Below, in pieces: positions 10,202 to 28,295 of a stretch of DNA of 45,761 bases. A program made the position numbers and the translations under genes. Each line of letters begins with the position of its first letter. Within the stretch, counting starts at the first letter, position 1. The stretch comes from Actinomycetes bacterium (GTDB lineage Bacteria; Actinomycetota; Acidimicrobiia; Acidimicrobiales; Ilumatobacteraceae): the NCBI GenBank assembly GCA_025359865.1, contig JANYDH010000122.1, positions 1 through 45,761 on the forward strand, given 5' to 3'. The notes beneath the pieces are model-generated. The model searched no databases, was not told the origin of the DNA, and worked only from the letters and a program-made list of their open reading frames with translations.

Positions 10202-10734
10202 GTGAGGCGCAGACGGCGCCGCTGTGGCGGTGCCGAGGACTTCACCGCATCCCGCTCGAGGCGGCGGTACTCCACAAGTGCCTCCTTGCGCTGGTCGGGG
10301 TTCATCCGGTCGAACATCAGTACGCCGTGCAGATGATCGATTTCATGTTGGAACAACCGTCCTGCCAACTCGTCGGCCTCGATCTCAATGGTGTTGCCGT
10401 TGAGGTCGAGCCCGCGCATGAGCACGTGATTGGGGCGGAGCATCTCGACATACAACCCGGGAATGCTGAGGCAGCCTTCGTCGTACACCCACTCGCCGCT
10501 GCTCTCGACGATCTGCGGATTGATCATCACCATCGGCTGATCGTCCATGTCCCACACGAAGACCTGCTTCTGCACACCGATCTGTGGGGCAGCCAGGCCG
10601 ATGCCGGAATCGCTTTCGTACAAGGTGTCGAACATGTCGTTGACAAGACGTGCGACCTTGCCGTCGATCTCGACCACCTCGGCGGCCTTGGCCTTCAGCA
10701 CCGGATCGCCGAAGGTGCGAATCGTGTACCCCAT
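10198..10734 (-). CDS. def: Peptide deformylase
   Basis: Def removes the N-formyl group from nascent peptides and uses a metal ion. All three family motifs are present in this 178-residue protein: GIGLAAPQIG, EGCLSIPG (Cys metal ligand) and QHEIDHLHG (two His ligands and the catalytic Glu). I start at the ATG in 10732-10734 (MGYTIRTFGDPVL), as in the family; an ATG 24 bases upstream is possible. It is the first gene of the minus-strand operon that ends at 6317. Confidence 0.95.
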   Translation of the reverse strand: MGYTIRTFGDPVLKAKAAEVVEIDGKVARLVNDMFDTLYESDSGIGLAAPQIGVQKQVFVWDMDDQPMVMINPQIVESSGEWVYDEGCLSIPGLYVEMLRPNHVLMRGLDLNGNTIEIEADELAGRLFQHEIDHLHGVLMFDRMNPDQRKEALVEYRRLERDAVKSSAPPQRRRLRLT

Positions 10735-10807
10735 GGAGTCCCAGCCTACTGGGCGCATCGTGAGCTGAGTCGCCGCTGTGAGAGCACCGCGTCACCCACT
10801 ATTTGGC

Positions 10808-10872
10808 GACCTTTGGCGTTTGAGTGTCATTCACAGGCTGTCGCAAAATGTGGGTGCGGTGTGGCGGCACCC
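10808..10872. repeat. Solo end of the family-1 inverted-repeat element (copy C)
   Basis: Positions 10808-10872 read GACCTTTGGCGTTT, then CACAGGCTGTCGCAAAATG, then TGGCGGCACCCC. This matches the reverse complement of the right end of copy A (11425-11494) over about 65 bases with scattered differences. The matching core does not follow, and no opposite end appears before copy A, so it is a truncated or decayed copy. It lies upstream of def, so it would be upstream of or within the def promoter region. Confidence 0.75.
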
Positions 10873-11048
10873 CGTCCCGACCTCGCTGATGTGAGTGGTG
10901 TGGCGAGCTCTTGTCCCCAGCTGACTTCCTCTCAGCCGCGCGTACCTTCACCTCAGCTCGCCGATGTGCAGCCCCGGGCGAAGTGACGAATACAACGCGC
11001 TAAAATGCCATCTCGTTCTGCACTTCGCGACTCCACGTCGCACTACCC
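10873..11048. other. Intergenic stretch with two perfect 8-bp inverted repeats
   Basis: There is no convincing gene between the solo repeat end and copy A. Two inverted repeats can be seen: GGCGAGCT at 10902-10909 with AGCTCGCC at 10955-10962, and GCGAAGTG at 10978-10985 with CACTTCGC at 11021-11028. The second could be extended by ACGA/TCGT with a bulge. They could form hairpins in either strand. Part of this stretch must hold the def promoter on the minus strand, but I see no clear -35/-10 pair. Confidence 0.4.
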
Positions 11049-11494
11049 GATCTTTGGCGGTGGGCTGCTGTCAACAGGCTGTCGCACAATGCTGTGTAGT
11101 GGTGTCGCGGGTGAGGTTGGCCGTCTGGTCGTGTTGTCGGCAACGGTGTCATGGTCGTTGCTGAACTGATGGTTGTGCCGCAGAAGTCGGCTCAACGTCG
11201 GCTCAACATCGGCGGCTGACAGCCCACCCGCCGGGCCTACCCGTTGTTGCGCTGCAGAGTCGCGTCGAGTTATCAGGGCTGGCGACATGTAAGTCGACGC
11301 GATCCTGCCCGCAACGCCGTCGTGGTCGCTGATGCAGACTTCCACCACGCCCGCCTGTCATGCAACGAACGTTCACGCTGCAGCGCTACCGCACGGCAAC
11401 AATCGGGACCGGGACCGGGATCGAGACCGGGTACCGCCAACCCCACCCGCATTTTGCGACAGCCTGTTGACAACAACCCAACGCCAAAGGTCAG
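11049..11494. repeat. Family-1 inverted-repeat element, copy A (446 bp)
   Basis: This non-coding element is bounded by imperfect inverted ends of about 45 bases. The left arm (11049-11093) contains CTTTGGCGGTGGGCTG and TCAACAGGCTGTCGCACAATGC. The right arm (11450-11494) contains GCATTTTGCGACAGCCTGTT and CAACGCCAAAGGTCA. Inside, a perfect 9-base stem TCGCGTCGA/TCGACGCGA lies at 11260-11268 and 11294-11302. The whole element matches copy B at 27815-28233 from end to end, including a run of 53 identical bases (11334-11386). Compared with B, there is an 11-base duplication (GTCGGCTCAAC) near 11195. No flanking target duplication is obvious. The right end stops 10 bases from the stop of the DUF4188 gene. 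Confidence 0.88.
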
Positions 11495-11504
11495 CCGTCG
11501 ACGA

Positions 11505-11993
11505 TCACCCAGCCGGGACGGCTTCGGCGGACATGCGGTTGCGTGCCGTTTCTCCGCGTCGGGCGACGGGCACGTGTTCACCGGCCTTGGCGAGGCCGAC
11601 AATCGGCATGTTGGCGTAGATGCACTCGTACTGGTCGGCTTGCACCTTGAACGTTTCGTGGTAGATCCCCACATCTCCGTTCGTGCCGACCCGTTGGTTG
11701 AACGAGCGCCATGCCACCAGATGCGGATCGTCCTGGTTGCGTGCGAACTGCTCGAGCTGGTCGAAACTACGCCAATACTGGATCATCGTGACGGTGCGCC
11801 CAGCGACGGAGCTGCGGATACCGAGCAACCCCTTGTCCGGATACACCATCAGTTCGCGGACCATTGGCCCCATGGCTCTGGCAACCGGCAACCACTTGTG
11901 AACCTTCCAGAGCTTGTTGATGCGCATGCCGATGATGAACACGACGAAGTCACCCTCGATCGCCGCGGTGTACCGGCCGGGTTGAACCTTCAT
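11505..11993 (-). CDS. DUF4188 monooxygenase-like protein
   Basis: A 162-residue protein of the DUF4188 family, which has a ferredoxin-like/antibiotic-monooxygenase type fold; its substrate is unknown. Distinctive segments are FVVFIIGMRINKLWKVHKW, MIQYWRSFDQLEQFARN, DDPHLVAWRSFNQ, GDVGIYHETF and YANMPIVGLAKAGEHVP. I choose the ATG at 11991-11993 (MKVQPGRYTAAIEG) because GGGAG lies 7 bases upstream; an ATG 30 bases earlier lacks such a site. It is divergent from a MerR-type regulator with operator-like repeats between them, so it is probably that regulator's target. Confidence 0.85.
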   Translation of the reverse strand: MKVQPGRYTAAIEGDFVVFIIGMRINKLWKVHKWLPVARAMGPMVRELMVYPDKGLLGIRSSVAGRTVTMIQYWRSFDQLEQFARNQDDPHLVAWRSFNQRVGTNGDVGIYHETFKVQADQYECIYANMPIVGLAKAGEHVPVARRGETARNRMSAEAVPAG

Positions 11994-12033
11994 GATGTTG
12001 CTCCCTTGTCGTCGTTCGGTCATACTTCTGGAT

Positions 12034-12067
12034 AGTTACACTATCGATAGTAGAGAGTGACACTATC
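12034..12067. promoter_or_regulatory. Operator-like repeats between DUF4188 gene and MerR gene
   Basis: AGTTACACTATC (12034-12045) and AGTGACACTATC (12056-12067) are near-identical 12-base direct repeats spaced 22 bases apart, about two helical turns. Overlapping the first is a perfect 12-base palindrome ACTATCGATAGT (12040-12051). They sit in the roughly 115-base region between two divergent starts. This is a natural place for the adjacent MerR-family protein to regulate both genes. Confidence 0.65.
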
Positions 12068-12107
12068 TGTTACGGGTGTCAAGTCCGAAACGTCAGAAGG
12101 GGAGTCG

Positions 12108-12776
12108 ATGAAGGTCGCCGAGTTGAGTGCCACGAGTGGAGCCACAGTGGCCACGCTGAAGTACTACCTCCGCGAAGGTCTGCTTCACCCAGGGCATGCG
12201 ACAGCCGTCAACCAGGCGGAGTACGACGACACCCACGTTCGCCGTGTTCGCCTGATCCGGGCGTTGCAGGAACTTGGCAAGCTCGGCCTCGCCGATGTCG
12301 CTCTGGTGCTTGCCGCGGTGGACGACGAATCCATCGAGCTGCACGCAGCGTTTGGTCTGGCCCAGGACGTGATGGTGCCGAATCGTCATCGCGATCCCGA
12401 TACGTTCACCGCCGCGCTCGCCGACGTCGACCGGTTCGTGCTCCGGCATGACTTCCATCTCCGCCCCGATGCCGCGGTCAGGTTGATGATGGCTGACGCA
12501 ATCGTCGCTCTCCAAACGTTCGGCGGTTTAAAGGACTCGTCGGCGTTCGACCGGATGGTCGAAAGCGCCAAGACTCAGGCCGCCGCCGAACTGGCCACCG
12601 TGCCTGATTCGGCCCCTCGCTCTCAGCAGATGGAATTGAGCGTCGTCGGAACGGTCGTCACGGAGATTGCAGCGGCAGCGGTGCGGCGGATGGCGCTGGA
12701 GGACGCAAGTTGGCGGCGGTTCGGGCCTGGCGCCCGCCCGCCCGCCGTGTGCGCGCCCGCCGCGTGCGCGCCGTAG
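12108..12776 (+). CDS. MerR-family transcriptional regulator
   Basis: A 222-residue regulator. The N-terminal 70 residues are a MerR winged helix: MKVAELSATSGATVATLKYYLREGLLHPG, then RVRLIRALQELGKLGLADVA. The C-terminal part is helical, longer than in metal sensors and without a Cys cluster, so the effector is probably organic or a protein. Start ATG at 12108 follows AGAAGGGGAG. The frame also opens 51 bases earlier, but without support. The last residues (RPPAVCAPAACAP) come from a GC-rich repeat. It is divergent from the DUF4188 gene. Confidence 0.88.
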   Translation: MKVAELSATSGATVATLKYYLREGLLHPGHATAVNQAEYDDTHVRRVRLIRALQELGKLGLADVALVLAAVDDESIELHAAFGLAQDVMVPNRHRDPDTFTAALADVDRFVLRHDFHLRPDAAVRLMMADAIVALQTFGGLKDSSAFDRMVESAKTQAAAELATVPDSAPRSQQMELSVVGTVVTEIAAAAVRRMALEDASWRRFGPGARPPAVCAPAACAP

Positions 12777-12789
12777 CGTGTGAGCCCGT

Positions 12790-13596
12790 ATGGATCGCCC
12801 GATCGGCATGTTCGACAGCGGCTTCGGCGGCCTCACCGTGGCTCGCGCTGTTATCGACCTGTTACCGGCCGAGCATGTGGTCTACATCGGTGACACCGGC
12901 CGGTATCCGTATGGCTCACGCCCGCAGGACGAGGTGCGCGGGTTCGCCCTCGAGATCGCCTGGAGCCTGGTACAAGATCATGACGCAAAGGCCATCGTGG
13001 TGGCGTGCAACACGGCGTCGGCGGCCGCACTCGAGGAACTGCGCGCCCAACTTCCGGTACCGGTGATCGATGTGGTCGAGCCTGGTGCCGCTGCACTGGT
13101 ACGCACCACCGAAAGCGGACGGGTGGGCGTGATTGGCACGGTCGGCACCATCGCATCGGGGGCGTACGACCGAGCTGTCGCCGCAACGGGTGAGATGGTC
13201 TCGCTCACAGCCATTGCCTGTCCGGGGTTCGTCGAATTCGTCGAGCGCGGCCAGACGAGTGGCGACGAGGTGCACATTCTCGCGGAACGGTTGCTGGCCC
13301 CCGTGCAGGCCGCCGATGTCGATGCGCTGCTGCTCGGCTGTACGCACTATCCCTACCTTGCGCGGGTGATCGCAGACGTGATGGGAGCGAACGTGACCTT
13401 GGTGTCGAGCGCTGACGAGACAGCGTTTGCGGCCCGCTCCGAGCTTGACCGGCTCGGTCTGCTCCGGCTTTCCGGCGACGAGGCGGCCGAACACCGCTTC
13501 CTGTCGAGTGGCGACATCACCTGGTTCGCGGATCTTGGCGGCAGACTGCTCGGCCCCGAACTTCGCGATGCCGAACGCTGGCACCCCATTCACTGA
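12790..13596 (+). CDS. murI: Glutamate racemase
   Basis: MurI interconverts L- and D-glutamate and supplies D-Glu for peptidoglycan. The 268 residues have [15 protein letters not shown] (catalytic Asp), [11 protein letters not shown] (first catalytic Cys) and [10 protein letters not shown] (second catalytic Cys and His). Length is standard. It starts 13 bases after the MerR gene and is followed by rph and rdgB, a common murI-rph-rdgB order in actinobacteria. Confidence 0.95.
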
Positions 13597-13612
13597 ACCC
13601 AGGAGAGCTGTG

Positions 13613-14374
13613 ATGACCCGATTCGATGGCCGTGCCACCGACGAACTACGCCCGATCACGTTCGAGCGCGACTACACCGAGATGGCCGGCGGCAGTGTGC
13701 TCGTGTCGTTCGGCAAGACCCGGGTGCTGTGCACCGCAAGTGTCGACGAGAACGTCCCACGGTGGATGAAGGGTAAGGGCAAGGGCTGGGTCACGGCCGA
13801 GTATTCGATGCTGCCAGGTTCGTCGCCCGAGCGCGTCGACCGTGAGGCAGCCAAGGGGAAGCAGAGCGGGCGCACCGTCGAGATCCAACGGTTGATCGGG
13901 CGAGCACTTCGTGCTGCATGCGACATGCGCCTGCTGGGCGAACGGCAGGTGATCGTTGACTGCGACGTGCTGCAGGCCGATGGTGGCACACGTACCGCGA
14001 GCATCTGCGGGGGCTACTTGGCATTGCACGATGCGCTCACACGGTTGGTGCAGAACAAGGCAATCCAGACCCATCCGTTGCTTTCGTATTGCGCGGCGAT
14101 CAGCGTTGGGATGGTCAACGGTGAGGCGGTGCTCGACCTGCCCTACGTGGAAGACAGCACAGCCGAAGTGGATATGAACGTGGTGATGACGCGGTTGCTC
14201 AGCGGGTCCGAGGCCGAGTTCGTCGAAGTGCAGGGCACCGCGGAAGGTGCGCCGTTCAGCCGCAGCCGTCTCGACTCCATGCTCGAATTGGCGTCGGTCG
14301 GCATCGGCCAGATCATGGCGCTGCAAGCCGAGATGATTGCGGTGCCGCCCGCTGCCAGACCGGCCAACCGTTGA
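13613..14374 (+). CDS. rph: Ribonuclease PH
   Basis: RNase PH is a phosphorolytic 3'-to-5' exoribonuclease that trims tRNA 3' ends. The 253 residues include [33 protein letters not shown], the R-rich phosphate-binding segment [17 protein letters not shown] and [19 protein letters not shown]. The open frame begins earlier within murI, but an AGGAGAG site at 13601-13607 selects the ATG at 13613. The order murI-rph-rdgB continues. Confidence 0.95.
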
Positions 14375-14390
14375 TCATGGCGGTCTGCCG

Positions 14391-14972
14391 ATGATCCGGC
14401 TCGTGTGTGCCTCGGCCAACCCAGACAAGGTGGCCGAGATCGCTGCCCTCCTCGACGGAGCAGTCGTCTTGCTACCGCGCCCAGCCCACGTGGCCGACGT
14501 GGTGGAGGATGCCCCGACCTTGGAGGGCAACGCCACGTTGAAGGCCGTGGCGATCTGCGCGGCAACAGGGCTGCCCGCCGTCGCCGACGATACCGGGTTG
14601 TTCGTCGACGCCTTGGACGGCCGACCCGGCGTGCACACTGCCCGATTCGCAGGTCCAACGGCCTCCTACGCGCAGAATCGTGTGGCGCTACTGGCAGCAC
14701 TCGATTCCGTTGTCGACCGCACCGCGCAGTTCCGCACCGTCGCAGTGGTGGTGTGGCCCGATGGCCGTGAGTTGGCCGTCGTTGGCGAGTGCCGAGGGCG
14801 AATCGCTGAGATGGAACTCGGCGAACGAGGGTTCGGGTACGACTCGGTCTTCATTCCCAACGATGGCGACGGGCGCACGTTCAGCCAGATGAGCCTCGAC
14901 GACAAGCAGGCCATCTCGCACCGTGGCAAGGCCTTCGCGGCGCTTCTCGCGGCCCTCGTCGGCGAGCCCTGA
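14391..14972 (+). CDS. rdgB: dITP/XTP pyrophosphatase (RdgB/HAM1 family)
   Basis: This enzyme hydrolyses non-canonical purine triphosphates (ITP, dITP, XTP) to monophosphates. The 193 residues contain ASANPDKVAEIAALL, EGNATLKAVAICAATGLPAVADDTGLFVDALDG and GFGYDSVFIP, with SHRGKAFAAL at the C-terminus, all family signatures. Start ATG at 14391 (MIRLVCAS); an upstream in-frame codon at 14337 lies inside rph and is unlikely. It follows rph by 16 bases. Confidence 0.93.
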   Translation: MIRLVCASANPDKVAEIAALLDGAVVLLPRPAHVADVVEDAPTLEGNATLKAVAICAATGLPAVADDTGLFVDALDGRPGVHTARFAGPTASYAQNRVALLAALDSVVDRTAQFRTVAVVVWPDGRELAVVGECRGRIAEMELGERGFGYDSVFIPNDGDGRTFSQMSLDDKQAISHRGKAFAALLAALVGEP

Positions 14973-15011
14973 CCCGCTCTCCTAAGCGCAGCTGATTCGG
15001 TTCGGGCCGGC

Positions 15012-16031
15012 TCAACCAACAATGGCGACCATGACAACGAAGCCTCGGTGGTCGCTTCCGGGGGTGTCGACGTTGCGGATCGACAGTGGCACAGCACCGT
15101 CGCGCACGAGGGCGTGGTCGATGCGCACGAACGGCGGGACCAGCACATCGGCGGGCCACGAGGTGGAAAAGCCATGGCCGAGCCACTCGTGTACATCGCG
15201 CACCCCGCTGTCGTCGAGCAGGTCGCGAAAATCAGGGTGCCAGCGGCTGGCATTGAAGTCTCCGACTGCGACCGTGGGCAGTCCTGGCTTATTGATGCGA
15301 CCGCCGATCGCGCTCAGATCCCCTTCCCAGGTTCCGAACGAGCCCGAATCGGTGGCTGCGAGGGGGTGGACCACGATGACTCTCACCGAGGTGCCATGCA
15401 CATCGAGTACTGCTTCGATACCGGGCTGGTCACCGAAGCGTTCGAACGAACTGGTCAATACCGGGTAACGGCTGAGCAACGCGATCCCGCCTCGATCTGG
15501 TGACGAGCGGCCGAGCCGATGCGGGTACGACTCGAACGCTCCGAGTCGTTCGAGTGCCTGTTCCAGACGCTGTGGGTATTCAACGACCGCGATGACATCG
15601 GTGTCCGTCGAGAGCAGACTGGCTGCGGCCTCGTCGATTCGATCGTTGCCGTAGTACGCGTTGGCAAACCGGATCGTCAGTCGTGGGGCCTGCGCCGACA
15701 CCGTTGGAGGGTCGCCATGAAACACCACCGGCACAGCGAGCCACAGCAAAACCGCGGCGATGAATGCGTTGGCCAGCGCCAGTCGGTGCCGACCCGTGCG
15801 CGTCGAGAAAAGTGCGAGCGGCAGCGAGGGAGCCAGCACGAACGGTGTGAGGGCTTGCACCACATACAGCACCGGGAACCCGGTGTAGCCGACCATTTGG
15901 CTGGCCACGAGCAGACCCGCGATCGCCGTCCACCCCCAGCCGAACGTGTCGATCGACTTGGTCCTGGTCCAATGTCGATGGGCTGTGGTGGTAGTCGACG
16001 CGCTTACCAGCCGCGGAGATCGATCGGCCAC
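15012..16031 (-). CDS. Membrane-anchored endonuclease/exonuclease/phosphatase family protein
   Basis: A 339-residue protein with three predicted membrane segments in the first 110 residues (GWTAIAGLLVASQMVGYTG; ALTPFVLAPSLPLALF; ALANAFIAAVLLWLAVPVV), followed by an EEP-fold domain outside the membrane. EEP landmarks are FANAYYGN, VIAVVEYP (Glu metal ligand), VVHPLA, AVGDFNASRWHPDF and the final GSDHRGF with catalytic His. Substrate class (phosphodiester, lipid or nucleic acid) cannot be told. It overlaps the start of nothing upstream on its strand except the last bases of the PLP-enzyme gene (16004-16031), suggesting translational coupling. Confidence 0.8.
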   Translation of the reverse strand: MADRSPRLVSASTTTTAHRHWTRTKSIDTFGWGWTAIAGLLVASQMVGYTGFPVLYVVQALTPFVLAPSLPLALFSTRTGRHRLALANAFIAAVLLWLAVPVVFHGDPPTVSAQAPRLTIRFANAYYGNDRIDEAAASLLSTDTDVIAVVEYPQRLEQALERLGAFESYPHRLGRSSPDRGGIALLSRYPVLTSSFERFGDQPGIEAVLDVHGTSVRVIVVHPLAATDSGSFGTWEGDLSAIGGRINKPGLPTVAVGDFNASRWHPDFRDLLDDSGVRDVHEWLGHGFSTSWPADVLVPPFVRIDHALVRDGAVPLSIRNVDTPGSDHRGFVVMVAIVG

Positions 16032-17020
16032 CGGTCGATCACCTCGCCGTCGTGTACCAGCCAGGCCACGTCGTGCATGGCCATCGTGGGGTCGATGTGG
16101 GCGGGGATTACCCGGATCTGATCGCCGACACGCACCGGCGTAGCAGGTGCAAACGTGACGTGCTCATCGCTAAGAAACCACACCGACGATGCAGCGTCGT
16201 CGACGCAAGGGGCAATGGTCGGGTTGCCGTGATCCATCCCCATGGCCTTGAGGCCCACGTCTGCAACCGCATAGTTCGCGCTGACCGAGACGACCGTGCC
16301 GACCACGAAACATGCCTGGATGAACGGATGGCCCAACTGGGCGTAGTAACTGTCCATGAGTGCGTAGCTGCCGGCCTGCACTTCGGTGACTCGGTGGTGA
16401 AGGTGGTATGTGCCGGTGCCACCGGCACTGATCACGTCACCGCCGACGTGCTCGTGGGCACCGACCAGTCGCTCGACCGCATCGTCCACTCGGCTTCGCT
16501 GTTCGTCGCTGTCGTCCATCACCATGAGGTGGCCTTCGTAGCCCATCACGCCACGCACGTCGATGCCGCGGCCCCGTGCTCGGTCGGCGAGTCTGGCCGC
16601 ATCATCCGGGCGACAACCGCATCGTGGCAGGCCGATGTTGACGTCGATGAGCGCGTGGTGAATACCTGCTTGCGCTGCGGCGTCAACGGTTTCGTCGGAG
16701 TCGAGGGCAACCGTGATCATCGCCCGGTCCTGCGCGGCCGCAAGGCCGGCAAGGCGGGTCGAGTCGATGACCTCATTGGCGAGCAGCAGGTCATCGCCGA
16801 GACCAGCGTCGGCCATGCCGATCATTTCTCGTACGGTGGCGCAGGTGAACGAACGATGCCCCACCGCAGCCTGAGCAGCAGCGAGTGAACTGCACTTGTG
16901 CGCTTTCACGTGCGGTCGAAGAAGCGGGCCGGGTCGAGCGGCCGCCATGATCCGCAGGTTGTGGTCGAGCGCGTCCGAGTCGATGATGAGCGCCGGGGTG
17001 GAGAGCTGAGCGACGTTCAT
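16004..17020 (-). CDS. D-threonine aldolase-like PLP enzyme (alanine racemase fold)
   Basis: A 338-residue PLP protein of the alanine-racemase-like, D-threonine aldolase/D-serine dehydratase group. The PLP lysine is in RPHVKAHKCSSLA (Lys39). GGTGTYH and EVQAGSYALMD match the family's phosphate-binding and C-terminal domain segments. The metal site near the C-terminus reads PAHIDPT (His308, Asp310). D-serine dehydratases have His-x-Cys at this place and D-threonine aldolases His-x-Asp, so aldolase chemistry on D-3-hydroxy amino acids is the better guess. Start ATG at 17020 (MNVAQLSTPALIID). It overlaps the EEP gene by 28 bases. Confidence 0.8.
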   Translation of the reverse strand: MNVAQLSTPALIIDSDALDHNLRIMAAARPGPLLRPHVKAHKCSSLAAAQAAVGHRSFTCATVREMIGMADAGLGDDLLLANEVIDSTRLAGLAAAQDRAMITVALDSDETVDAAAQAGIHHALIDVNIGLPRCGCRPDDAARLADRARGRGIDVRGVMGYEGHLMVMDDSDEQRSRVDDAVERLVGAHEHVGGDVISAGGTGTYHLHHRVTEVQAGSYALMDSYYAQLGHPFIQACFVVGTVVSVSANYAVADVGLKAMGMDHGNPTIAPCVDDAASSVWFLSDEHVTFAPATPVRVGDQIRVIPAHIDPTMAMHDVAWLVHDGEVIDRWPIDLRGW

Positions 17021-17105
17021 CGGTCGGCTGCCAGAAGTGGTTGACTGCGCAGACGGCAAGCGGCAACGTGTGGGGTTCTGATCACGTCGACCAGTCTTGC
17101 ATGGG

Positions 17106-17187
17106 TGCGGGCGGAGGGACTCGGACCCTCACTCCTTGCGGAACAGGGACCTAAACCCTGCGCGTATGCCAGTTTCGCCACGCCCGC
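17106..17187 (-). tRNA. tRNA-Leu(UAG)
   Basis: Read on the minus strand, the acceptor arms GCGGGCG (17181-17187) and CGCCCGC close an 82-base class II tRNA. The anticodon arm is CAGGG-TTTAGGT-CCCTG, giving anticodon UAG (17151-17153), which reads CUN leucine codons. The long variable arm, TTCCGCAAGGAG-like, supports leucine. The T arm is GAGGG-TCCGAGT-CCCTC. The bases after the discriminator A are CCC, so CCA is not encoded. Confidence 0.93.
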
Positions 17188-17201
17188 GGCGGGTGCTCAG
17201 G

Positions 17202-18368
17202 TTACCGACCGCGAACGAGAGACAGCGATGCGCCCACTGGAACGGTTTGGCTGATGTGGATTGCACGATTCGGCACGAACCGTTGTCGGCGCTGAGTCCA
17301 CACCGGTGTTTCGTTGACGCTGGCCTGAAGCCGACCGGTGACGAACTCGGCGACGCGAAGCGTGACGCCCACGGCGGTAGGGGCGGCCCAAACGATCGGG
17401 GGTTCGACGGCAAGCGGTGCGACCGCATGCGGCCAGAGTCCGCCCATCAGCCACCGAGCAACCGATGGCGCAACAACACGACCATCGAGTGCACAGAGAT
17501 CAGCGGTCTCAGCCGGGTGGACGAGATTGCCGATCGCGAATACACCGGGTCGCGACGTCTCGAATGACGCACTGATGGCTGGGGACCGCGAGACCCTATC
17601 CATACCGGTCCCGCAGCGTCGGGCCAGTTCGTGGTCGGGAATCCAGTCGCCGGTGAACACGACGGTGTCGCACGTGATGCGACTTCCGTCGGTGAGGATC
17701 ACCGCCTCCACACGACGACGACCGACGATCTCAGCGACGTCGACCTCGGTGTGGATCGGTACGCGGTACCGCGTCGCCGTGGCCATGCGCAGCACCGCGT
17801 AGGTCTGATGGCGGGGGAGCGAGGTGACCATCGCGGCCGTCTCGCATCCACCGTGACGGAGTGTCGACATCGCCGAGAAACTCACGTGTTCGGCACCGAC
17901 GATGACCGCTCGCCGACCGACTTGGCGGTGATGCAACGCGGTGAGTTGTTGAATCGACCCGGTGGTGAACACCCCTGCCGGCCTGTCGCCGGGAACCAGC
18001 CGCGCCGCCCGCGGACGCTCGCGCACGCCGGTGGCCAGTACCACTGAGTCGGCATGAATCGCCGTTCCGTCGGCGAGCGTGACGCCGGTGCCGCTCACAT
18101 CGGTAACCGTCGTCTCGGTGAGCAGTTCCACACCGCTTCGAGCTGCGATGTCTACCAAGCGACTGGCATAGCGCGGCCCGGACATCACCCGTCGCAGGTC
18201 GCGGATCGCGAACCCGAGGTGATCGGTGTGCCGCGGAATCCCCCCGGCCTGACGCTCACGCTCGACGACGACCACGCGGCCGATGCCGGCGTTGCGCATC
18301 GTGGCCGCGGCGCTCAGCCCTGACGGTCCGCCTCCCACGACGATGACGGTCCGGTCGGCGAGATTCAC
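17202..18368 (-). CDS. FAD/NAD(P)-dependent oxidoreductase of a glycerol-3-phosphate operon
   Basis: A 388-residue flavoprotein. An N-terminal FAD site, VIVVGGGPSGLSAAATM (about residues 8-24), is followed by ADSVVLATGVRERPR and a second nucleotide-binding region (RAVIVGAEHVS, less canonical), and FAIGNLVHPAETADLC near the flavin. It lies directly after the dehydrogenase-like gene (GTGA overlap at 18365-18368) and the kinase. Similar two-flavoprotein plus kinase sets occur in Thermotoga and actinobacteria, where this partner may pass electrons from glycerol-3-phosphate oxidation. The start is GTG at 18366-18368; the longer open frame covers the preceding gene. The exact acceptor is unknown. 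Confidence 0.82.
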   Translation of the reverse strand: MNLADRTVIVVGGGPSGLSAAATMRNAGIGRVVVVERERQAGGIPRHTDHLGFAIRDLRRVMSGPRYASRLVDIAARSGVELLTETTVTDVSGTGVTLADGTAIHADSVVLATGVRERPRAARLVPGDRPAGVFTTGSIQQLTALHHRQVGRRAVIVGAEHVSFSAMSTLRHGGCETAAMVTSLPRHQTYAVLRMATATRYRVPIHTEVDVAEIVGRRRVEAVILTDGSRITCDTVVFTGDWIPDHELARRCGTGMDRVSRSPAISASFETSRPGVFAIGNLVHPAETADLCALDGRVVAPSVARWLMGGLWPHAVAPLAVEPPIVWAAPTAVGVTLRVAEFVTGRLQASVNETPVWTQRRQRFVPNRAIHISQTVPVGASLSLVRGR

Positions 18369-19741
18369 CGGTCGACCGGCCAGCCGGTGAGAGCGCACAC
18401 CTCGGCCAGGCAGTAGAACCCCTGGCATCGCCCTGCGAGAGCGCGTGTGCGTCGACGCAACCCGTCGAAATCGCGCGCTGGTACAGCGGCCGCACACGCA
18501 GCAGTGATCTCGTCGGCCGTCACCCGTTCGCAGTGACAGACGATTCGCCCGCCTGTTTGGTATGGCCGCAGCGTGGCTTCACCGAGCGGTTGGAGACCGA
18601 TGGAGACAATCGTCTCGCGGTCGACCACGGTGAGACCAATCGATTGCAGCCGTGCAAGTGCCTCCTCGGCCAATGCCATCGAGGCGGTGAGTCCGGTCGA
18701 ACGAATACCGCCGAGGCCGACATAGCGCAACGCTGCATCGTCGCTGACCTGGTAGTCGCTGTGCTCAGTGGCCGCACGCAGGCCGGCGTAGACGGCGGTC
18801 ACCTCCTCGTCGATGAGCGCCGGGATGATTCGTCGACCTTTGGCCAGTAGCCCATCGAGTCCGTCGCGGGTGGACCCGGTTGCGGTGCGGTCGTCGATGT
18901 CGTCGGCCGTCGGCCCGAGCATCACGTTGCCGAATACGGTCGGGGCGACGAGTACACCTTTGGTGTGAGCGGTTGGCACCGGCAGGATCGTTCGTTGCAG
19001 CAGCGGCCTCGCAAGCTTGTCGAACACGATCAGTTCCCCGCGCCGTGGCCGGATGGTGTACCCGTCGAGGCCGAACATGCGGTGGAGGGTGTCGCCGTGG
19101 AGACCGGCCGCGTTCACGACGAATCGGGCAGCGATCCGCCGACCGTCCACAATGTGCAGCATCGTGATCTCGTCGCCGCTATCGCAGGCGACGACTTGTG
19201 CATTGGTGAGCAGTACGCATCCGTTGGCAACGGCCTCGGTCGCGAATGCGATTGGCGTGCTCCACGGATCGATCAGGTGCTCATCGGGCACCACCATCCC
19301 TCCGGTGACCCCTGGTCCGAGGTGTGACTCGAGCGCGTACACCTCGACCGGGTCGATGATCTCTGCGGACATGTACCCGTTGGCCTGTGCCTTGTTACGC
19401 AGGGTTGTCAGTGTCGATGCCTGCTCGTCATCCCATGCGACGAGCACGGCGCCGGTCTGTTCAATCGATATCCCGACCGTCGGGGCATAGTCACGAAGCA
19501 GCGCGTAGCCGCGGGCCACGAGTCGCGCTTCGACCGAGCCAGGTGGTGCATCGAATCCGGTGTGAAGGATCGCCGTATTGGCCTTGCTGGTGCCGGTACC
19601 GACGTCTGGTCCAGCCTCGACGAGAGCGATGGTCAGGTCGTAGTGCGACAACAACCGGGCGACGGCCGAGCCGACCACGCCGGCGCCGACCACCACTACA
19701 TCAAACGGCTCGATTCGATCGGTAGCCACATGCGCCATCAT
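18365..19741 (-). CDS. Glycerol-3-phosphate dehydrogenase-like FAD oxidoreductase with BFD-like [2Fe-2S] domain
   Basis: A 458-residue DAO-family flavoprotein. FAD site: VVVVGAGVVGSAVARLLSHY. Conserved later parts are FVVNAAGLHGD, RPRRGELIVFDK and GLGGIRSTGLTASMALAEEA. The C-terminal 80 residues form a BFD-like domain with CHCERVTADEI and GRCQGFYC, four Cys for a [2Fe-2S] cluster. This is the GlpA-type arrangement (anaerobic G3P dehydrogenase) rather than GlpD. Start: one of two adjacent ATGs (19739-19741 or 19736-19738), 8 bases after the kinase stop. The frame open upstream overlaps the kinase and is ignored. Confidence 0.85.
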   Translation of the reverse strand: MMAHVATDRIEPFDVVVVGAGVVGSAVARLLSHYDLTIALVEAGPDVGTGTSKANTAILHTGFDAPPGSVEARLVARGYALLRDYAPTVGISIEQTGAVLVAWDDEQASTLTTLRNKAQANGYMSAEIIDPVEVYALESHLGPGVTGGMVVPDEHLIDPWSTPIAFATEAVANGCVLLTNAQVVACDSGDEITMLHIVDGRRIAARFVVNAAGLHGDTLHRMFGLDGYTIRPRRGELIVFDKLARPLLQRTILPVPTAHTKGVLVAPTVFGNVMLGPTADDIDDRTATGSTRDGLDGLLAKGRRIIPALIDEEVTAVYAGLRAATEHSDYQVSDDAALRYVGLGGIRSTGLTASMALAEEALARLQSIGLTVVDRETIVSIGLQPLGEATLRPYQTGGRIVCHCERVTADEITAACAAAVPARDFDGLRRRTRALAGRCQGFYCLAEVCALTGWPVDR

Positions 19742-19748
19742 TCGTCCA

Positions 19749-21176
19749 TCATTGGTCCATCGTTGCTTCGGCAACGTGCTGCCAGGCTGCAATCCGCTCA
19801 GCAGCCTCGTCGGCGCTGATCTGGGGCTCGACCACTGCAGCAGGATGCCACGTGCTTGCACCGAGTACGTCGCTGGACGCGACCAATCCTGCACCGAGCG
19901 CCGCGAACCACGCCACGCCGAACGCAGTGGCGTGCGGTGATGGGTACACCTCGACGGGCGTCTGCAGCAGGTCGGCCTGAACCTGCAGCAGTGTGCGACT
20001 GCGGGTGAGTCCCCCGTCGACGCGCAGTCGCGTGAGAGGCGTTCCAAGGTCGCGGCCGGCGGCGATCGCGAGCAGGGCCACCTGGGCGGCGATCCCATCG
20101 ATCGCCGCTCGCACCAGGTGTCCGCGTTCGGTGGCCAGAGTCATCCCGGTGAATGCAGCCTTGGCGTGCGGCTTCCAGTACGGGGCACCAAGACCGGCGA
20201 GAGCTGGGATGAACGTGACGCCGGCGGAATCGGTGACGGCGCCGCCTATTCGGTCGAGATCGGCGGGCTCGCTGATGATCCCCATCGACTGCAGCCACCC
20301 CATCGCTGCGCCCGCGGTGAACACCTGACCATCGAGGCACCAGGTGGTGGTGTCGTCGACCTTCCATGCCGGGCAGCCGACCAGTCCATTGACCGACCGG
20401 GTCGGACGCGACCCGGTGCACGCGAGCAGAAAGGCACCGGTGCCGTACGTGCACTTTGCCTGGCCGGCAGTGTGGCACGACTCGGCAAACAGCGCCGCCT
20501 GCTGATCGACGCACACCCCGGTGACCGGAACGCGACCGCCGAACAGGGTGCAGTCACCCAATGGCTGCGCGTTAGCGACGATCGACGGCAGCGAAGCAGC
20601 GTCGATGCCGAACAAGTCGCATGCTTCGGGGCTCCATGTACCAGTGTCGAGGTCGAGTAGTAGTGAACGTCCAGCGGTCGAGATGTCGGTCGCGAACGTG
20701 CCGCACAATCGGTGCAACAACCAGACGTCGGTGGTGGTGATGACTGGCCCCTCGCCGACCCGTTCCCGCAACCACACCAGCTTCGGGGCAACGAAGTACG
20801 GGTCGAGCTCTAGGCCGGTGATCTGTGCGAGCCGTGGCCCATGCCCGGTGATTCGGTCGCAGACAGTGAACGATCGACGGTCTTGCCAAACGATCGCCCG
20901 ACTGGCCGGCAATCCGGTAGCCCGTTCCCATGCCAGCACCGTCTCACCCTGGTTGCCCAACCCGATCGCGTGGATCGTCGGATGACCTGCGCGTGCCAAC
21001 GCTTGGGCGCCGGCGGCGAGCACACTTGCCCAGAGTTCCTCGGGGTCGATCTCGACGCCACCGTCGCTGGTGCTGGTGACGGTGATCGGCACGTCCGCGA
21101 GCCCGAGCACCTGGTTGCCGTCGACCACCATCGCCTTGGTGGCCGAAGTGCCCTGATCGATCGCGAGTACTGTCAC
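19749..21176 (-). CDS. glpK: FGGY-family kinase, glycerol kinase-like
   Basis: A 475-residue sugar/polyol kinase. It has DQGTSATKAMV (phosphate loop), IVWQDRR, CVDQQAALFAE, KCTYGTGAFLL, GLGAPYWKPHAKAAFTGMT and RVDGGLTRSRTLLQVQADLL, all closest to glycerol kinase. Glycerol-contact residues map as Trp97, Tyr127, Asp224, Gln225 and Glu78, but the arginine expected next to Glu78 (NQRET in glycerol kinase) is glycine here (NQGET, Gly77). The substrate may therefore be glycerol or another small polyol. It heads a three-gene operon with two flavoproteins, which supports polyol-phosphate oxidation. Confidence 0.82.
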   Translation of the reverse strand: MTVLAIDQGTSATKAMVVDGNQVLGLADVPITVTSTSDGGVEIDPEELWASVLAAGAQALARAGHPTIHAIGLGNQGETVLAWERATGLPASRAIVWQDRRSFTVCDRITGHGPRLAQITGLELDPYFVAPKLVWLRERVGEGPVITTTDVWLLHRLCGTFATDISTAGRSLLLDLDTGTWSPEACDLFGIDAASLPSIVANAQPLGDCTLFGGRVPVTGVCVDQQAALFAESCHTAGQAKCTYGTGAFLLACTGSRPTRSVNGLVGCPAWKVDDTTTWCLDGQVFTAGAAMGWLQSMGIISEPADLDRIGGAVTDSAGVTFIPALAGLGAPYWKPHAKAAFTGMTLATERGHLVRAAIDGIAAQVALLAIAAGRDLGTPLTRLRVDGGLTRSRTLLQVQADLLQTPVEVYPSPHATAFGVAWFAALGAGLVASSDVLGASTWHPAAVVEPQISADEAAERIAAWQHVAEATMDQ

Positions 21177-21222
21177 CGCCTCCGACCGTAGCGCCGTGCC
21201 GCCGTTTCGCCGCGCCGCCGGG

Positions 21223-22083
21223 CTACCTGGCGGAAGTAGCGGCGTCGACCGAGTGTGCGAAGGTACACACGAGATTCGTCCAGCGCCCCCACAACTGCGG
21301 CGGGTAGTCGTGTCCCATGCCCTCGATCAACTCGAATCGTGCACCCGGGATGAGGTCAGCCACCCGTCGTCCACCGCTCTGATCGATGAGTGTGTCGTTG
21401 TCGCCGTGCAGTACCAGCGCTGGCACGGTGACCGAGCGAAGGCCGTCGGCGCGCGATCCGGACGCGCGTATGGCGAGGAACTGGCGGGCTGTGCCGTCGG
21501 GGCTGAACGACCGGTCGAAGCCACGTTCGGCGTCGGCGCGCCAGCGCGTCTCGTCGGCGAACTCTGGGCTGCCCCACATCCTCAACCCCTCGATGTGGGC
21601 GGCGATGTGCGACTCGCGGTCGGTGGCCGGCGCCCTGGTGAGCAACGGCAACGCCTGCGGGGCTGGCTGGCCGAACTCGGCTTCGCCGCTCGTCGACATG
21701 ACCGACGTCATCGAACGGAGCCGTTGTGGATGGTCGATGGCCAGCGTCTGCACGATCATCCCGCCCATCGACAGGCCCATCACGTGAGCCTGTTCGACAC
21801 CTTCGGCGTCGAGTACAGCGACGGCATCGCGGGCCATGTCGCCAATGAGGTACGCCTCTCCGCCCGCTCCTGTTGGAGCACCCGCAAACTTCGAGGACAG
21901 ACCGACGTCGCGATTGTCGAAACGAAGCACGAAGAAGCCTCGGGCGACGTACATCGCGCACCACGCATCGCTGTAGTTGATGCATTGGCTGCCAAGTCCG
22001 TTGACCATCAGGAGCGCTGGATCCGTGCGCTCACCGAAGGTCTCGTACCAGATCTCGCAGTCGCCGTTACGGGTCGTTGTCAC
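21223..22083 (-). CDS. Alpha/beta hydrolase
   Basis: A 286-residue alpha/beta-hydrolase, close in pattern to RdmC-like esterases. Landmarks: NGLGSQCINYSD (oxyanion region), FFVLRFDNRDVGLSS, nucleophile elbow VMGLSMGGM (Ser), HGDNDTLID (acid) and EGMGHDYP (His). No signal peptide, so cytoplasmic. The substrate cannot be predicted. It is followed by the glpK start 46 bases downstream on the same strand. Upstream of its start lies the 51-bp palindrome. Confidence 0.9.
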   Translation of the reverse strand: MTTTRNGDCEIWYETFGERTDPALLMVNGLGSQCINYSDAWCAMYVARGFFVLRFDNRDVGLSSKFAGAPTGAGGEAYLIGDMARDAVAVLDAEGVEQAHVMGLSMGGMIVQTLAIDHPQRLRSMTSVMSTSGEAEFGQPAPQALPLLTRAPATDRESHIAAHIEGLRMWGSPEFADETRWRADAERGFDRSFSPDGTARQFLAIRASGSRADGLRSVTVPALVLHGDNDTLIDQSGGRRVADLIPGARFELIEGMGHDYPPQLWGRWTNLVCTFAHSVDAATSAR

Positions 22084-22105
22084 GCCCGAACGGTAGCGCC
22101 TCGGG

Positions 22106-22156
22106 CCAGCTTTGGTCGTGAGATGTCGCTCAGCGACATCTCACAACCAAAGCTGG
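22106..22156. repeat. Palindromic repeat, family 2 (51 bp, complete)
   Basis: Two 25-base arms flank a single C: CCAGCTTTGGTCGTGAG... on the left and ...CTCACAACCAAAGCTGG on the right. The only non-pair is one C/A position, which becomes G-U in minus-strand RNA. It begins 1 base after the stop of the transporter gene (minus strand), so it can form a very stable 3' hairpin there; there is no T-tract. Half of the same palindrome opens the window, and its first ten bases close the window. Confidence 0.9.
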
Positions 22157-22157
22157 T

Positions 22158-23069
22158 TCAGGTCGGTCGACGATTCGTGAGGTAGGCACCAAGTATGGCG
22201 ATGGCACAGCCCGCGACGGCGAGCACGGCTACTGCCTCGTGGCGTACGAGCGAACCAAGCAGCAGCGAGACCACCGGCACGATGTACACGCTGACCGATG
22301 CGCGGGTGCTGCCCAGCCGCCCGGCGTTGCCGGCCATTACGACGAACGCGAGTGCGGTACCGAACACACCGAGCGCGACCATCGCGAAGAACGGTCCCCA
22401 CGCGAACTTCACATTGTCGACAGAGGGGATCGCGAACGGCACGATCAACACCAGCGCGACGCCCTGGGCGCGCCAGAGCACGGGCAGGCTCCCGTAGCGC
22501 TGCTGTAGCGGCACCGCGAGGTTGAGCGAGATGCCGTAGAACACAAGCGCGATGAAGATCAGCCCGATACCCGTCCAGGAGTTGTCCCCGGTGCTCCTCG
22601 ACGCGACAGCGATGAGCACCACCCCTACGAAGCCGACCGCGACACCGATGATCTGGTGCGATGGAGGCAGTCGTTTGGCCATGAGTGCTGCCACGACAGC
22701 GATGAACAACGGTGTTGCTCCGTTGAGCATGCCGGTTACCGATGACGACACCCGCTCCTCGGCGAACGGGAAGATCGACAGCGGAATCGCCATCCAGATC
22801 ACTCCGAGCAACACGATCCGCCGCATGTCCTTCCGCTCAATCTTGACCCTTCGCGCAGCAGGAAAGAGGCCAAGGGTGAGACAACCGAAGCCGACCCGCA
22901 TGGGGGTGATGAGCACAGCGGGAAACGCCCGCAATCCTTCGGCGATGAAGTAGAACGACATGCCCCACACCAGGCCGGGCAACACGAGCAGCGCCCAATC
23001 GGCGGTCGACATGTGCAGATGACTGCCGGTCGCCGCCGTGAGCGGCTCGGTCTTTGGTGGCGATGTCAC
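22158..23069 (-). CDS. DMT-superfamily (EamA) transporter
   Basis: A 303-residue membrane protein with about ten hydrophobic segments arranged as two EamA repeats, e.g. WALLVLPGLVWGMSFYFIAEGL at the start and VSVYIVPVVSLLLGSL in the second half, plus VTGMLNGATPLFIAVVAALM. It is likely a drug/metabolite exporter; the substrate is unknown. The ATG at 23067-23069 is used here; a second Met at residue 20 (MSTADWALLV) is an alternative that would remove the hydrophilic leader. It ends next to the family-2 palindrome and is divergent from the DUF2461 gene. Confidence 0.9.
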   Translation of the reverse strand: MTSPPKTEPLTAATGSHLHMSTADWALLVLPGLVWGMSFYFIAEGLRAFPAVLITPMRVGFGCLTLGLFPAARRVKIERKDMRRIVLLGVIWMAIPLSIFPFAEERVSSSVTGMLNGATPLFIAVVAALMAKRLPPSHQIIGVAVGFVGVVLIAVASRSTGDNSWTGIGLIFIALVFYGISLNLAVPLQQRYGSLPVLWRAQGVALVLIVPFAIPSVDNVKFAWGPFFAMVALGVFGTALAFVVMAGNAGRLGSTRASVSVYIVPVVSLLLGSLVRHEAVAVLAVAGCAIAILGAYLTNRRPT

Positions 23070-23106
23070 CGGAGCGAGGATAGGTGCGTTGATCTATTCT
23101 GTACGA

Positions 23107-23787
23107 ATGGCTTTCACCGGATTTCCCGACGAGGCATTCACGTTCTACGACTCATTGGTCGCCGACAACACCCGGGCATTCTGGCTGGGGGGCAAGGAAA
23201 CCTACGTGCGCGCAGTGCGTCGGCCAATGGATGAGTTACTCGAGACCCTCAGCGAGTTCGGCCCGTTTCACGTGTTCCGCCCCAACAAAGATGTCCGGTT
23301 CTCGAAGGACAAGACCCCGTACAAAGACCACATCGGAGCGTACGGCGAGTCGCAGGGCGGCGCAGGTTTCTATGTGCAGTTGTCTGCGCAGGGGATGTTC
23401 GCCGGCTCTGGCTACTACCAGATGGCTCCTGACCAACTCGACCGCTTTCGCCGTGCGGTCGACGCACCGGCCGTTGGCGCGGAGATCGTCGCGATCAGTG
23501 CGGCCATGTCCAAAAAGGGTTTCGTGGTCGGATCGATGAACGAGTTGAAGACGGCACCGCGCGGCTACCCGAAAGATCATCCGCGGATCGGGCTCCTCCG
23601 CCGAAAGGGGTTGTTCGTCAGCAAGGAGTGGCCTGTCGCGGCGTGGATGTCTTCCAAAGCGGTGGTCGTTCGGGTCCGCGACGCGTGGATGGCGGCGGGC
23701 GAGATGAACGCATGGCTCGACGCTCACGTCGGGCCGAGCACTATCGCACCGGATGACGATGAACTGGCTCGCTTCGGACCCTTGTGA
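23107..23787 (+). CDS. DUF2461 (TIGR02453) family protein
   Basis: A 226-residue soluble protein of unknown function. The family pattern is clear: FYDSLVADNTRAFW near the N-terminus, PNKDVRFSKDKTPYKDHIGAY, GAGFYVQLSAQGMFAGSGYYQM and APRGYPKDHPRIGLLRRKGL. ATG at 23107 starts MAFTGFPDEAF as in homologues. It is 37 bases from the divergent transporter gene and nearly touches the convergent ATPase gene (15 bases between stops). Confidence 0.9.
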   Translation: MAFTGFPDEAFTFYDSLVADNTRAFWLGGKETYVRAVRRPMDELLETLSEFGPFHVFRPNKDVRFSKDKTPYKDHIGAYGESQGGAGFYVQLSAQGMFAGSGYYQMAPDQLDRFRRAVDAPAVGAEIVAISAAMSKKGFVVGSMNELKTAPRGYPKDHPRIGLLRRKGLFVSKEWPVAAWMSSKAVVVRVRDAWMAAGEMNAWLDAHVGPSTIAPDDDELARFGPL

Positions 23788-23802
23788 CCTCGGCCGGCGT
23801 GC

Positions 23803-26214: not shown

Positions 26215-26263
26215 GAGACGCACGCTACCTGTGCCGTCGCCGCCACTCGACTTGCCAATGGCC

Positions 26264-26312
26264 GACTTTTGGCGTTGGGCTGTTGTATGCGACAACCCGA
26301 CGCCAAAGGTCA
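26264..26312. repeat. Compact family-1 hairpin (copy D)
   Basis: GACTTTTGGCGTTGGGCTG on the left and CCCGACGCCAAAGGTC on the right form a stem with TGTTGT/GACAAC nearly meeting around an ATGC loop. These are the outermost tips of the 446-bp element of 11049-11494, joined without its core. It lies 8 bases after the stop of the SufR-like gene and about 50 bases before the ATPase start, both minus strand. It could therefore be a terminator of the first or leader structure of the second. Confidence 0.8.
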
Positions 26313-26319
26313 GCGAGGT

Positions 26320-26952
26320 TCACGAGCGTGACGAAACCCGGTAGCTGCATCGGTGATCGCCGGCCAACAGGTGCTGTTCGCGGGTAACCGTTACGTCGCC
26401 ACCAAGCGCAGCGCTGAACACCTGGAGTTCGCTTTGGCACAGCGTTCCGCATGCACCTGCCGCAGCGCGCACGGGGCAATGGTGCTCGACCAACACGATG
26501 TCGTCACCATCGACTTCCACCTCGGCCATATATCCTTCGGCAGATCGTTGGTCGGCCAGGCGTCGAACTCGGACTGCGATGCTTCCGGCGCCGATCTGGC
26601 CGCGATACTGCTCGGCCTGGCGCTGCGCCCGGGTGGCGACCACACGCGAGAGGGCCTCGTCGCCGAGTGTCGAACGAATCGACTCGATGAGATCGAGCGT
26701 CAGATCTGCGTGTCGATCGGGGAACAGCGAGGCCGCTCGGCCAGCCAGTTGCCAACGTGCTGCCGGACGCCCGCGCCCGCTGGCATGGCCATCGCTGCGT
26801 CGCACAATGTCGGCGGCTTGGAGTGCCTCGAGGTGTTGGCGGATCGCAGTATCGGTGAGATTGAACTCGCTTGCCAGCTCACCAGCGGTGGCGCTGTCTA
26901 CCCGGTTCAAGCGGTCGACGATGCGGCGCTTGGCATCGGTCAGTTCGATCAC
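26320..26952 (-). CDS. SufR-like DNA-binding regulator with C-terminal Cys cluster
   Basis: A 210-residue regulator. Residues 1-75 are a winged helix (ELASEFNLTDTAIRQHLEALQAADIVRR). The C-terminal part holds EHHCPVRAAAGACGTLC and GDHRCSYRV: Cys at 159, 168, 172 and 202. This layout is that of SufR, which senses Fe-S cluster status and represses suf operons. The cysteine spacing differs from some SufR proteins, and no suf gene is in the window, so its targets are unknown. The neighbouring divergent gene is a Cys-cluster (YkgJ) protein, 107 bases away. Confidence 0.8.
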   Translation of the reverse strand: MIELTDAKRRIVDRLNRVDSATAGELASEFNLTDTAIRQHLEALQAADIVRRSDGHASGRGRPAARWQLAGRAASLFPDRHADLTLDLIESIRSTLGDEALSRVVATRAQRQAEQYRGQIGAGSIAVRVRRLADQRSAEGYMAEVEVDGDDIVLVEHHCPVRAAAGACGTLCQSELQVFSAALGGDVTVTREQHLLAGDHRCSYRVSSRS

Positions 26953-27059
26953 AACCGCAGCCTAGCGAATACGCAAGTAGACGCTTCGATAACTCTCGCG
27001 TCTGATCGCTACGCTGCGAACGATTCCAACCCTGCAGCAACGATGGCCCTGGAGCAACG

Positions 27060-27794
27060 ATGGCCGACGAATGCAGCCCACCGTTTCAAGAGCTAGGCGG
27101 CCGAGAGCCAGGTGTCCAAGAGGCCGACGTCCGTAATCTCGCGGCTGGCGACTTCTCTGCATGGATGACCGAGGTACAGCAGGCAATTCGTGGAGAGCGT
27201 TTCTCGGATGTGCCGTGTGGCGGCTGCACCGCATGTTGCACGTCCTCGCAGTTCATTCATAGTGCGCCCGACGAGACCGATACGTTGGCGCACATTCCAG
27301 CCGCGATGTTGTTCCCTGCACCTCGGTTGCCGCTCGGGCACGTCTTGGTCGGCTACGACCAAGACGGGCATTGTCCGATGCTGATCGACAACGCCTGCTC
27401 GATCTATGCACATCGCCCCAGAACGTGTCGTACCTACGACTGTCGTGTCTTCCCAGTGGCGCGGGTCGAACTCGACGATGCCGACAAGGCGGCGATCGCG
27501 AGGCAAACGCGACGATGGCAGTTCAGCTTCGACAGTCCGAACGCCCGGGTCCAACACGACGCTGTGAGCGCGGCGGCGGCGCATCTTGTTCAGCATCGAC
27601 AGCTGCTTGCCGACGACGCGGTGCCCGCAAACACCACGCAGCTCGCCGTGCTGGCAATCGAGGTCCACGATGCCTTTGTCGAGCGCGACCCCGAAACTGG
27701 CATGACGAAAATCACCGTTCCCGCTTCCGACGCAGTTCGCGTGATGGTGACATCCCGACGCCGTTCGCAACGCGGGCGTACACCGGGCCACTAG
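27060..27794 (+). CDS. YkgJ-family cysteine-cluster protein
   Basis: A 244-residue protein of the YkgJ/UPF0153 type, which is thought to bind iron or zinc via cysteines. The signature is CGGCTACCTSSQFI (residues 53-57 and following), CPMLIDNACSIYAHRPRTCRTYDCRVFP, about eight Cys. Function unknown. The ATG at 27060 is preceded by GGAG at 5 bases; the local sequence GCAACGATGGCC occurs twice here (about 27036 and 27054), a short duplication of the start region. It lies divergent from the SufR-like regulator and ends 20 bases from repeat copy B. Confidence 0.85.
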   Translation: MADECSPPFQELGGREPGVQEADVRNLAAGDFSAWMTEVQQAIRGERFSDVPCGGCTACCTSSQFIHSAPDETDTLAHIPAAMLFPAPRLPLGHVLVGYDQDGHCPMLIDNACSIYAHRPRTCRTYDCRVFPVARVELDDADKAAIARQTRRWQFSFDSPNARVQHDAVSAAAAHLVQHRQLLADDAVPANTTQLAVLAIEVHDAFVERDPETGMTKITVPASDAVRVMVTSRRRSQRGRTPGH

Positions 27795-27814
27795 TGCTGC
27801 GCCGCAGAATCTCG

Positions 27815-28283: not shown

Positions 28284-28295
28284 GCGGCGTCGTCG

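Follow-up and report, generated by a model that had tools for sequence, protein, structure and literature searches.

The window, i.e., the whole 45,761-bp stretch of an Ilumatobacteraceae contig that was analysed, carries two copies of a repeat, for which a preliminary description had given the positions 11049-11494 (copy 1, 446 bp) and 27815-28233 (copy 2, 419 bp). Both copies were confirmed at these coordinates. They match end to end, including a run of 53 identical bases that begins at 11334 in copy 1 and at 28093 in copy 2, and the subterminal inverted pair GGGTG(A/G)GGTTGG, the internal stem TCGCGTCGA/TCGACGCGA and a frame-breaking 11-base indel between the copies are present as had been reported. 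The inverted ends are also there (44 bases, 89% and 75% complementary), but they are not the termini of the mobile unit. The element boundaries drawn previously were wrong: no target duplication is found at them, and the mobile unit is a core lying inside, which runs from CAGG to CCTG in copy 1 and has CCTA at its right end in copy 2. The 26 outermost bases on each side of both copies are the halves of a separate 48-bp palindrome.

In copy 1, the left half of this target palindrome (11049-11074, ending in TCAA) is followed by a core of 392 bp (11075-11466) and by the right half (11467-11492, starting with TTGA), all on the plus strand. The core opens with the terminal inverted repeat CAGGCTGTCGCACAATG (11075-11091), closes with CATTTTGCGACAGCCTG (11450-11466) and contains a 43-nt hairpin module (11260-11302) with the two 9-bp arms of the internal stem and a 25-nt spacer. 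Copy 1 belongs to a longer composite, measuring 685 bp between its outer ends, which is closed on the minus strand by another outer palindrome half (10808-10833), a third copy of the GACCTTTGGCG end. Remnants of the repeat modules B (84% over 71 bp), E3 (84% over 37 bp) and E5 (95%) are joined to copy 1 on the same strand (10833-11048), and these modules recur beside other copies of the family. Copy 2 lies beside a shortened module E1 on the minus strand (27791-27815, starting with CTAG on the plus strand) and consists, on the plus strand, of a left palindrome half (27816-27841), a core of 366 bp (27842-28207) with its hairpin module at 28016-28058, and a right palindrome half (28208-28233). 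The TTGG that ends the left half and the TTGG that starts the right half are the two members of an exact target duplication. Sixteen bp past copy 2 there are seven perfect GGGTG pentamers (28250-28284), and similar tracts were seen near loci L036 and L067.

Alignment of 24 copies, together with module maps, gave the core order left arm, hairpin module, right arm and hexamer array. Outside the core come the palindrome halves, and then either unique DNA or further modules (E1, E2, E4, or B with E3 and E5). Conservation within the family is lowest in the outer inverted ends, where the outer 45 columns deviate by 10% and 13%, vs 5% inside. Beside L058, L060, L069, L079, L091 and others, module E1 gives way abruptly to unique DNA at or close to ...GCACTAG, and this resembles the border of another, older repeat element. 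Module B, as seen in the left flank of L023 and elsewhere, has a 52-nt inverted self-match at 90% (CGACACGTGGAGGCACGTGT...) and represents a third palindromic repeat type. In L065, a unit of 293 bp (1774-2066) that shares the CAGG...CCTG ends has modules E5, E3 and B in place of core and hairpin, so module B may be a second type of mobile element with shared ends.

Ends of the mobile unit and its target palindrome

When the outer ends were treated as element ends in 26 units, no target duplication was detected: the mean flank match was 1.92, compared with 2.20 ± 0.20 for flanks re-paired at random, and 471 of 500 shuffles were at least as high, in a test that may have missed units. The ends were therefore moved inward. 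In addition, the outer ends occur back to back without insert, as a stand-alone palindrome, and thus the mobile unit must start inside the palindrome. The core so delimited is bounded by 17-bp inverted repeats, CAGGCTGTCGCAnAATG and CATTnTGCGACAGCCTG (at most three mismatches, 43 units). An exact 4-bp target duplication flanks 14 of the 43 units, compared with a mean of 4.7 and a maximum of 13 for re-paired flanks (0 of 5,000 re-pairings reached 14), and the mean match of the 4-bp flanks was 2.79 of 4 vs 1.97 ± 0.14 when re-paired. The scored units were 293-554 bp long; ends with more than three mismatches, ends less than 30 bp from the end of a locus and lengths outside the scan range of 200-620 bp were excluded, and palindromes and units were counted by plain mismatch counting.

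Twenty-eight of the 43 scored units sit between two halves of the 48-bp palindrome, and the duplication is exact in eight of them and matches at three of four positions in 11. Of eight units with a palindrome half on one side only, two have exact duplications and two match at 3/4, and this class includes L024 (exact TAAA/TAAA), which was placed there by a weak match with four mismatches and shows no palindrome half by eye. The remaining seven units lack a palindrome half on either side; four are exact (TGTA, AATA, TGGA and GAGA), two match at 3/4 and one at 1/4. As to the window, the duplication of copy 2 is exact, whereas copy 1 is probably a recombinant unit, since its left TCAA does not match its right TTGA. 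The 29 of 43 units without an exact duplication, copy 1 included, are the main weakness of an interpretation as a non-autonomous DNA transposon (MITE). We would ascribe the unequal duplications to recombination between copies and to mutation; recombination between copies is also the explanation offered for the unequal direct repeats of insertion sequences that target REP sequences (PMC1525189).

The preliminary description had proposed to look for target duplications and empty sites, and this comparison gave, besides the 4-bp duplications at the core ends, a paralogous pair of empty and filled palindromes. The loci examined contain 12 distinct examples of the 48-bp palindrome without insert, one of which is in the window (26264-26311). 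All 12 are exactly 48 bp long even though 26-140 bp was permitted, and the reversed-word control gave 0. In L092, an empty palindrome (1568-1615) lies directly before module E3 (...GGGCTGTCATTGACAACAACCC...CTCAGCCCTCGTGTTGAGTTGG), and in L013 a filled one lies before the same module (GGGCTGTCATTGA-386 bp-TTGACAACAACCC); the difference between the two is the core plus a duplicated TTGA. They are paralogous repeats with a common palindrome and right-hand module and different left flanks, and the comparison is not between two strains at a single locus. L074 has another unfilled palindrome before E3. Congeners gave no usable empty sites, their flanking genes being ~69-84% identical and not collinear.

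Both orientations of the core occur within the same flanking modules (E2-core-E1 three times and E1-core-E2 twice; E4-core-B twice and B-core-E4 once), which suggested site-specific inversion of the core. This reading was dropped because insertion either way round into a symmetric palindrome explains the orientations more simply. The centre of the palindrome is probably preferred for insertion, as opposed to a joint spread of palindrome and core.

Distribution of the family and relatives with the same ends

Further copies in the same genome, which the preliminary description had suggested searching for, proved to be numerous, and a chance match is excluded. At least 129 blastn matches to copy 1 were found in its own genome (4.99 Mb in 219 contigs, 96.6% complete), at least 52 of them at E <1e-30, with the query itself included and 40 of 297 first-look candidates scored. 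Pattern scans located 137 core ends (69+68, at most one mismatch), 136 composite ends (62+74, at most three mismatches) and 131 hairpin modules (58+73, at most three mismatches), totals that count ends or modules and not elements; the reversed-pattern control was 0 in each case. Core modules are present in at least 91 loci, with about 100 of the 131-137 places of each pattern listed. The true copy number is probably higher, because the assembly breaks inside the repeat, with contigs such as C42, C58, C69, C145, C175, C186 and C187 starting or ending in it.

Only three of 90 loci lie more than half within a called gene, with 88% of the window called coding; this intergenic count is approximate, since the calls came from a simple codon-bias caller that missed, for example, the gene for a Pfam CxxCxxCC protein at 27060-27794, and loci with modules spanning >900 bp were dropped. 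The orientation of the element relative to flanking genes shows no evident preference (strand classes of 16, 15, 14 and 10 among the 55 loci flanked on each side by a called gene). The genes at the two ends of the interval 11505-27794 share one contig in genomes G001 (C41) and G002 (C180), and genes just outside both copies are found on other contigs (C164 in G002; C129 and C87 in G001). Thus, both copies sit at synteny breaks, which reflect either repeat-mediated rearrangement or misassembly at repeats.

The search of related genomes that had also been proposed gave a divided answer, as no core family was seen but elements with the same 17-bp ends were found in one genome, G092. In a blastn search of the source genome and 60 relatives (four of the same genus), the relatives yielded one weak 32-bp match (G042, E 5e-6) and otherwise none. 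The queries used also found no copy in named genome contigs and viral contigs (exact-pattern scans) or in plasmids and phages (blastn), collections that may omit the source genome or ones near it. As far as seen, the family with this core is confined to the source species. A search for the core ends in 100 genomes returned, besides the source genome, 18 matches in G092 and one solo match each in G011 and G034.

G092 is a genome from another family of the same order and contains nine 89-bp elements (L158-L166) with the same 17-bp ends, one end having one mismatch. Their 4-bp duplication is exact in eight cases and matches at three of four positions in the ninth; the interior of one of them, L158, matched neither of the window cores at an E cutoff of 1. 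The nine elements are very similar to each other, likely from a recent burst. The ends and the duplication length are thus those of a transposition system that occurs in the order. Judged by these sequences, an interior of ~55 bp without a hairpin is sufficient for an element, and because this 89-bp relative has the same ends and duplications, the hairpin is presumably not needed for mobility. Other matches to the core end were rejected. Four stretches of viral contigs had one match each and no element, and a possible partner end in one of them (L170) sits in apparent coding sequence; a 34-bp match in a Methylocystis plasmid (E 0.7) was read as chance, with none of five nearby annotated features a transposase in an incomplete gene table. 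The 17-bp core end was also sought in phages, where none was found.

Considering the inverted ends, the duplications, the empty/filled pair and the G092 elements, we conclude, at a probability of roughly 0.9, that both window copies are insertions of a MITE with 17-bp inverted ends CAGGCTGTCGCAnAATG and a 4-bp target duplication, a transposon that sits mostly at the centre of a REP-like palindrome. A MITE-like nature had been suggested before, and it is supported here by the many, mainly intergenic copies, the terminal inverted repeats, the target-site duplications and the empty/filled pair; the element is also short and without a transposase gene, with indels that break the frame, for example that of 11 bp. 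The MITE would have been moved in trans by a DDE-type transposase, which may since have been lost, be missing from the assembly or have escaped recognition. In the loci examined, no two nearest core ends were 620-3,000 bp apart, the spacing expected of an autonomous partner. The genome-wide transposase search covered PF01797 and PF01609, and revealed two DDE_Tnp_1 (PF01609) genes in the source genome, on contig C116; the insertion sequences containing them were rejected as the parent, their ends not matching the core ends. Nine paralogous ORFs near family members encode AMP-binding, P450 or amidase proteins or have no Pfam match.

The internal hairpin and other explanations of the repeat

The hairpin module occurs once in 24 and twice in 18 of the 43 units, the remaining unit being L065 with its other modules. 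Tandem modules are separated by a linker of ~10 bp (two modules in L018, L021, L023, L028-L030, L034, L035 and others; three in L067), and no locus with both core arms but without a hairpin module was found among the loci examined. Hairpins with perfect arms and a spacer of 18-32 nt number 144 in the source genome and 0-2 in each of 99 others. The same arms with other loops and a 25-nt spacer are also found outside the element, as singles or tandem arrays, in L141, L155, L156, L157 and L012; the 25-nt spacer was imposed in one hairpin scan and free to vary in the other two. The array in L141 (1087-1290, corresponding to G000 C4:24086-24289) comprises three hairpin modules with a different loop and a 61-bp period, and stands alone, with no clear core or palindrome-end module close by. 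The hairpin at L012:1384-1426 is a single one with a 15-bp stem, ~80 bp from the palindrome half of an element, and its outermost pair has changed from T-A to C-G, a compensatory change. With the hairpin array as query, weak matches of 20-53 bp appeared in 15 of 99 related genomes, none of them in the genus, and were read as chance.

Gyrase, IHF and Pol I reportedly bind REP sequences. In the MITE interpretation, the 43-nt hairpin would be a REP-like palindrome that travels as a passenger and is retained for some reason other than transposition. An alternative places the function in the hairpin itself instead of the transposon: the hairpin would be a chromosomal site for protein binding or processing that was captured and spread by the MITE. 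Its arms are nearly invariant: deviations were seen in 2 of 1,530 cells at the 18 arm positions, compared with 188 of 3,230 at the other scored positions of 85 modules (P 7.6e-7, a guide only, as the copies are related and not independent; loci L112-L131, picked via the hairpin pattern, were left out). Among 388 placements of two 9-column blocks in 24 aligned elements, zero deviation was seen in two, both at the arms, and the recurrence of these arms around other loops in the arrays and single hairpins outside the element points in the same direction. However, the hairpin is not a repeat in the four same-genus genomes, which have 0-2 pattern matches with unrelated loops, and so any functional role would be recent; no partner protein is known, and there is no evident orientation bias relative to genes. 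We regard this alternative as doubtful, though worth serious consideration. The fuller proposal that a putative protein reads the 9-bp arms 25 nt apart, and that the MITE spread and multiplied this site (one to three per insertion) through one species in a short evolutionary time with the other palindrome as landing pad, is speculative and rather unlikely.

It is very improbable that the copies encode a structured RNA, the other reading offered in the preliminary description. They do fold strongly, and when stand-alone and element hairpins were aligned the covariation score (0.189) exceeded that of all 500 shuffles (0.101 ± 0.016), with pairs changed on both sides in 5 cases vs 3.3 (44 of 500 shuffles), in a small set of 15 related sequences. 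The suggested covariation check thus gave some signal for the mixed hairpins, but none of 40 element modules, chosen for variety from 83, showed a compensatory stem change. Moreover, the opposite strand folds equally well (z -6.6 and -6.9), the 55 loci show no evident bias in orientation, a tRNA (17106-17187) is the sole hit of the window to Rfam that reaches the gathering score, and a simple consensus scan of 10700-11600 detected neither a sigma-70-like nor a terminator-like site. A RAYT transposase acting on REP sequences would give short, intergenic palindromes in high copy number and with a mosaic layout. Nevertheless, Y1_Tnp (PF01797) has 0 matches in the source genome, at an assembly completeness of 96.6% and with a control that was positive in 5 of 14 genomes, and the cores have inverted-repeat ends and 4-bp duplications. 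GTAG and CGTC tags are marks of REPs (PMC3733652); by eye, no such unpaired tag is present in the 48-bp palindrome, whose consensus starts with GACC and ends with GGTC, or beside the hairpin arms TCGCGTCGA/TCGACGCGA. Transposition by RAYT is therefore the least probable of the explanations considered.

Relation to known repeats

A literature search found no description of a matching family, in agreement with the preliminary description, with most subscription journals outside its reach. Several known systems share some of its features. Bacterial MITEs are likewise short, non-coding and mostly intergenic, with inverted-repeat ends, target duplication and many copies, and the element described here differs in carrying a nearly invariant hairpin that can be amplified in tandem and in that its parent insertion sequence was not found (PMC10969869). 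BOX elements of Streptococcus pneumoniae and S. suis are also modular, with inverted ends, clusters with other repeats, outer modules and a central module in variable number (boxB there, the hairpin here), and in S. suis alternative outer modules surround the same centre, as in our family; the likeness noted is one of architecture, and the outermost parts here differ in being a separate palindrome that also occurs empty and lies outside the mobile unit (PMC3049150). BrickBuilt of Porphyromonas gingivalis is a MITE with an internal tandem repeat, but its repeats are 23 nt long and spacerless, whereas those here are 62-bp palindromic modules with linkers of ~10 bp in one to three copies (PMC4596501). 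IS1397, IS621, ISKpn1, ISPpu9 and other REP-targeting insertion sequences also insert into a repeated palindrome; they are autonomous, unlike the MITE here, and the palindrome in which this MITE sits has neither a GTAG nor a CGTC tag (PMC1525189). The combination is that of a MITE mostly within one palindrome that carries another palindrome in variable number.

With these results, a structured repeat that had lacked an explanation becomes a transposon whose ends and target duplication are defined and which likely prefers one kind of insertion site, and the case shows that a target palindrome can pass for the inverted ends of the transposon itself. The 17-bp ends common to two families of one order provide a handle for finding the missing transposase. 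The nearly invariant hairpin, present in one to three copies, allows a direct test of whether functional DNA sites can be distributed through a genome by a mobile repeat.
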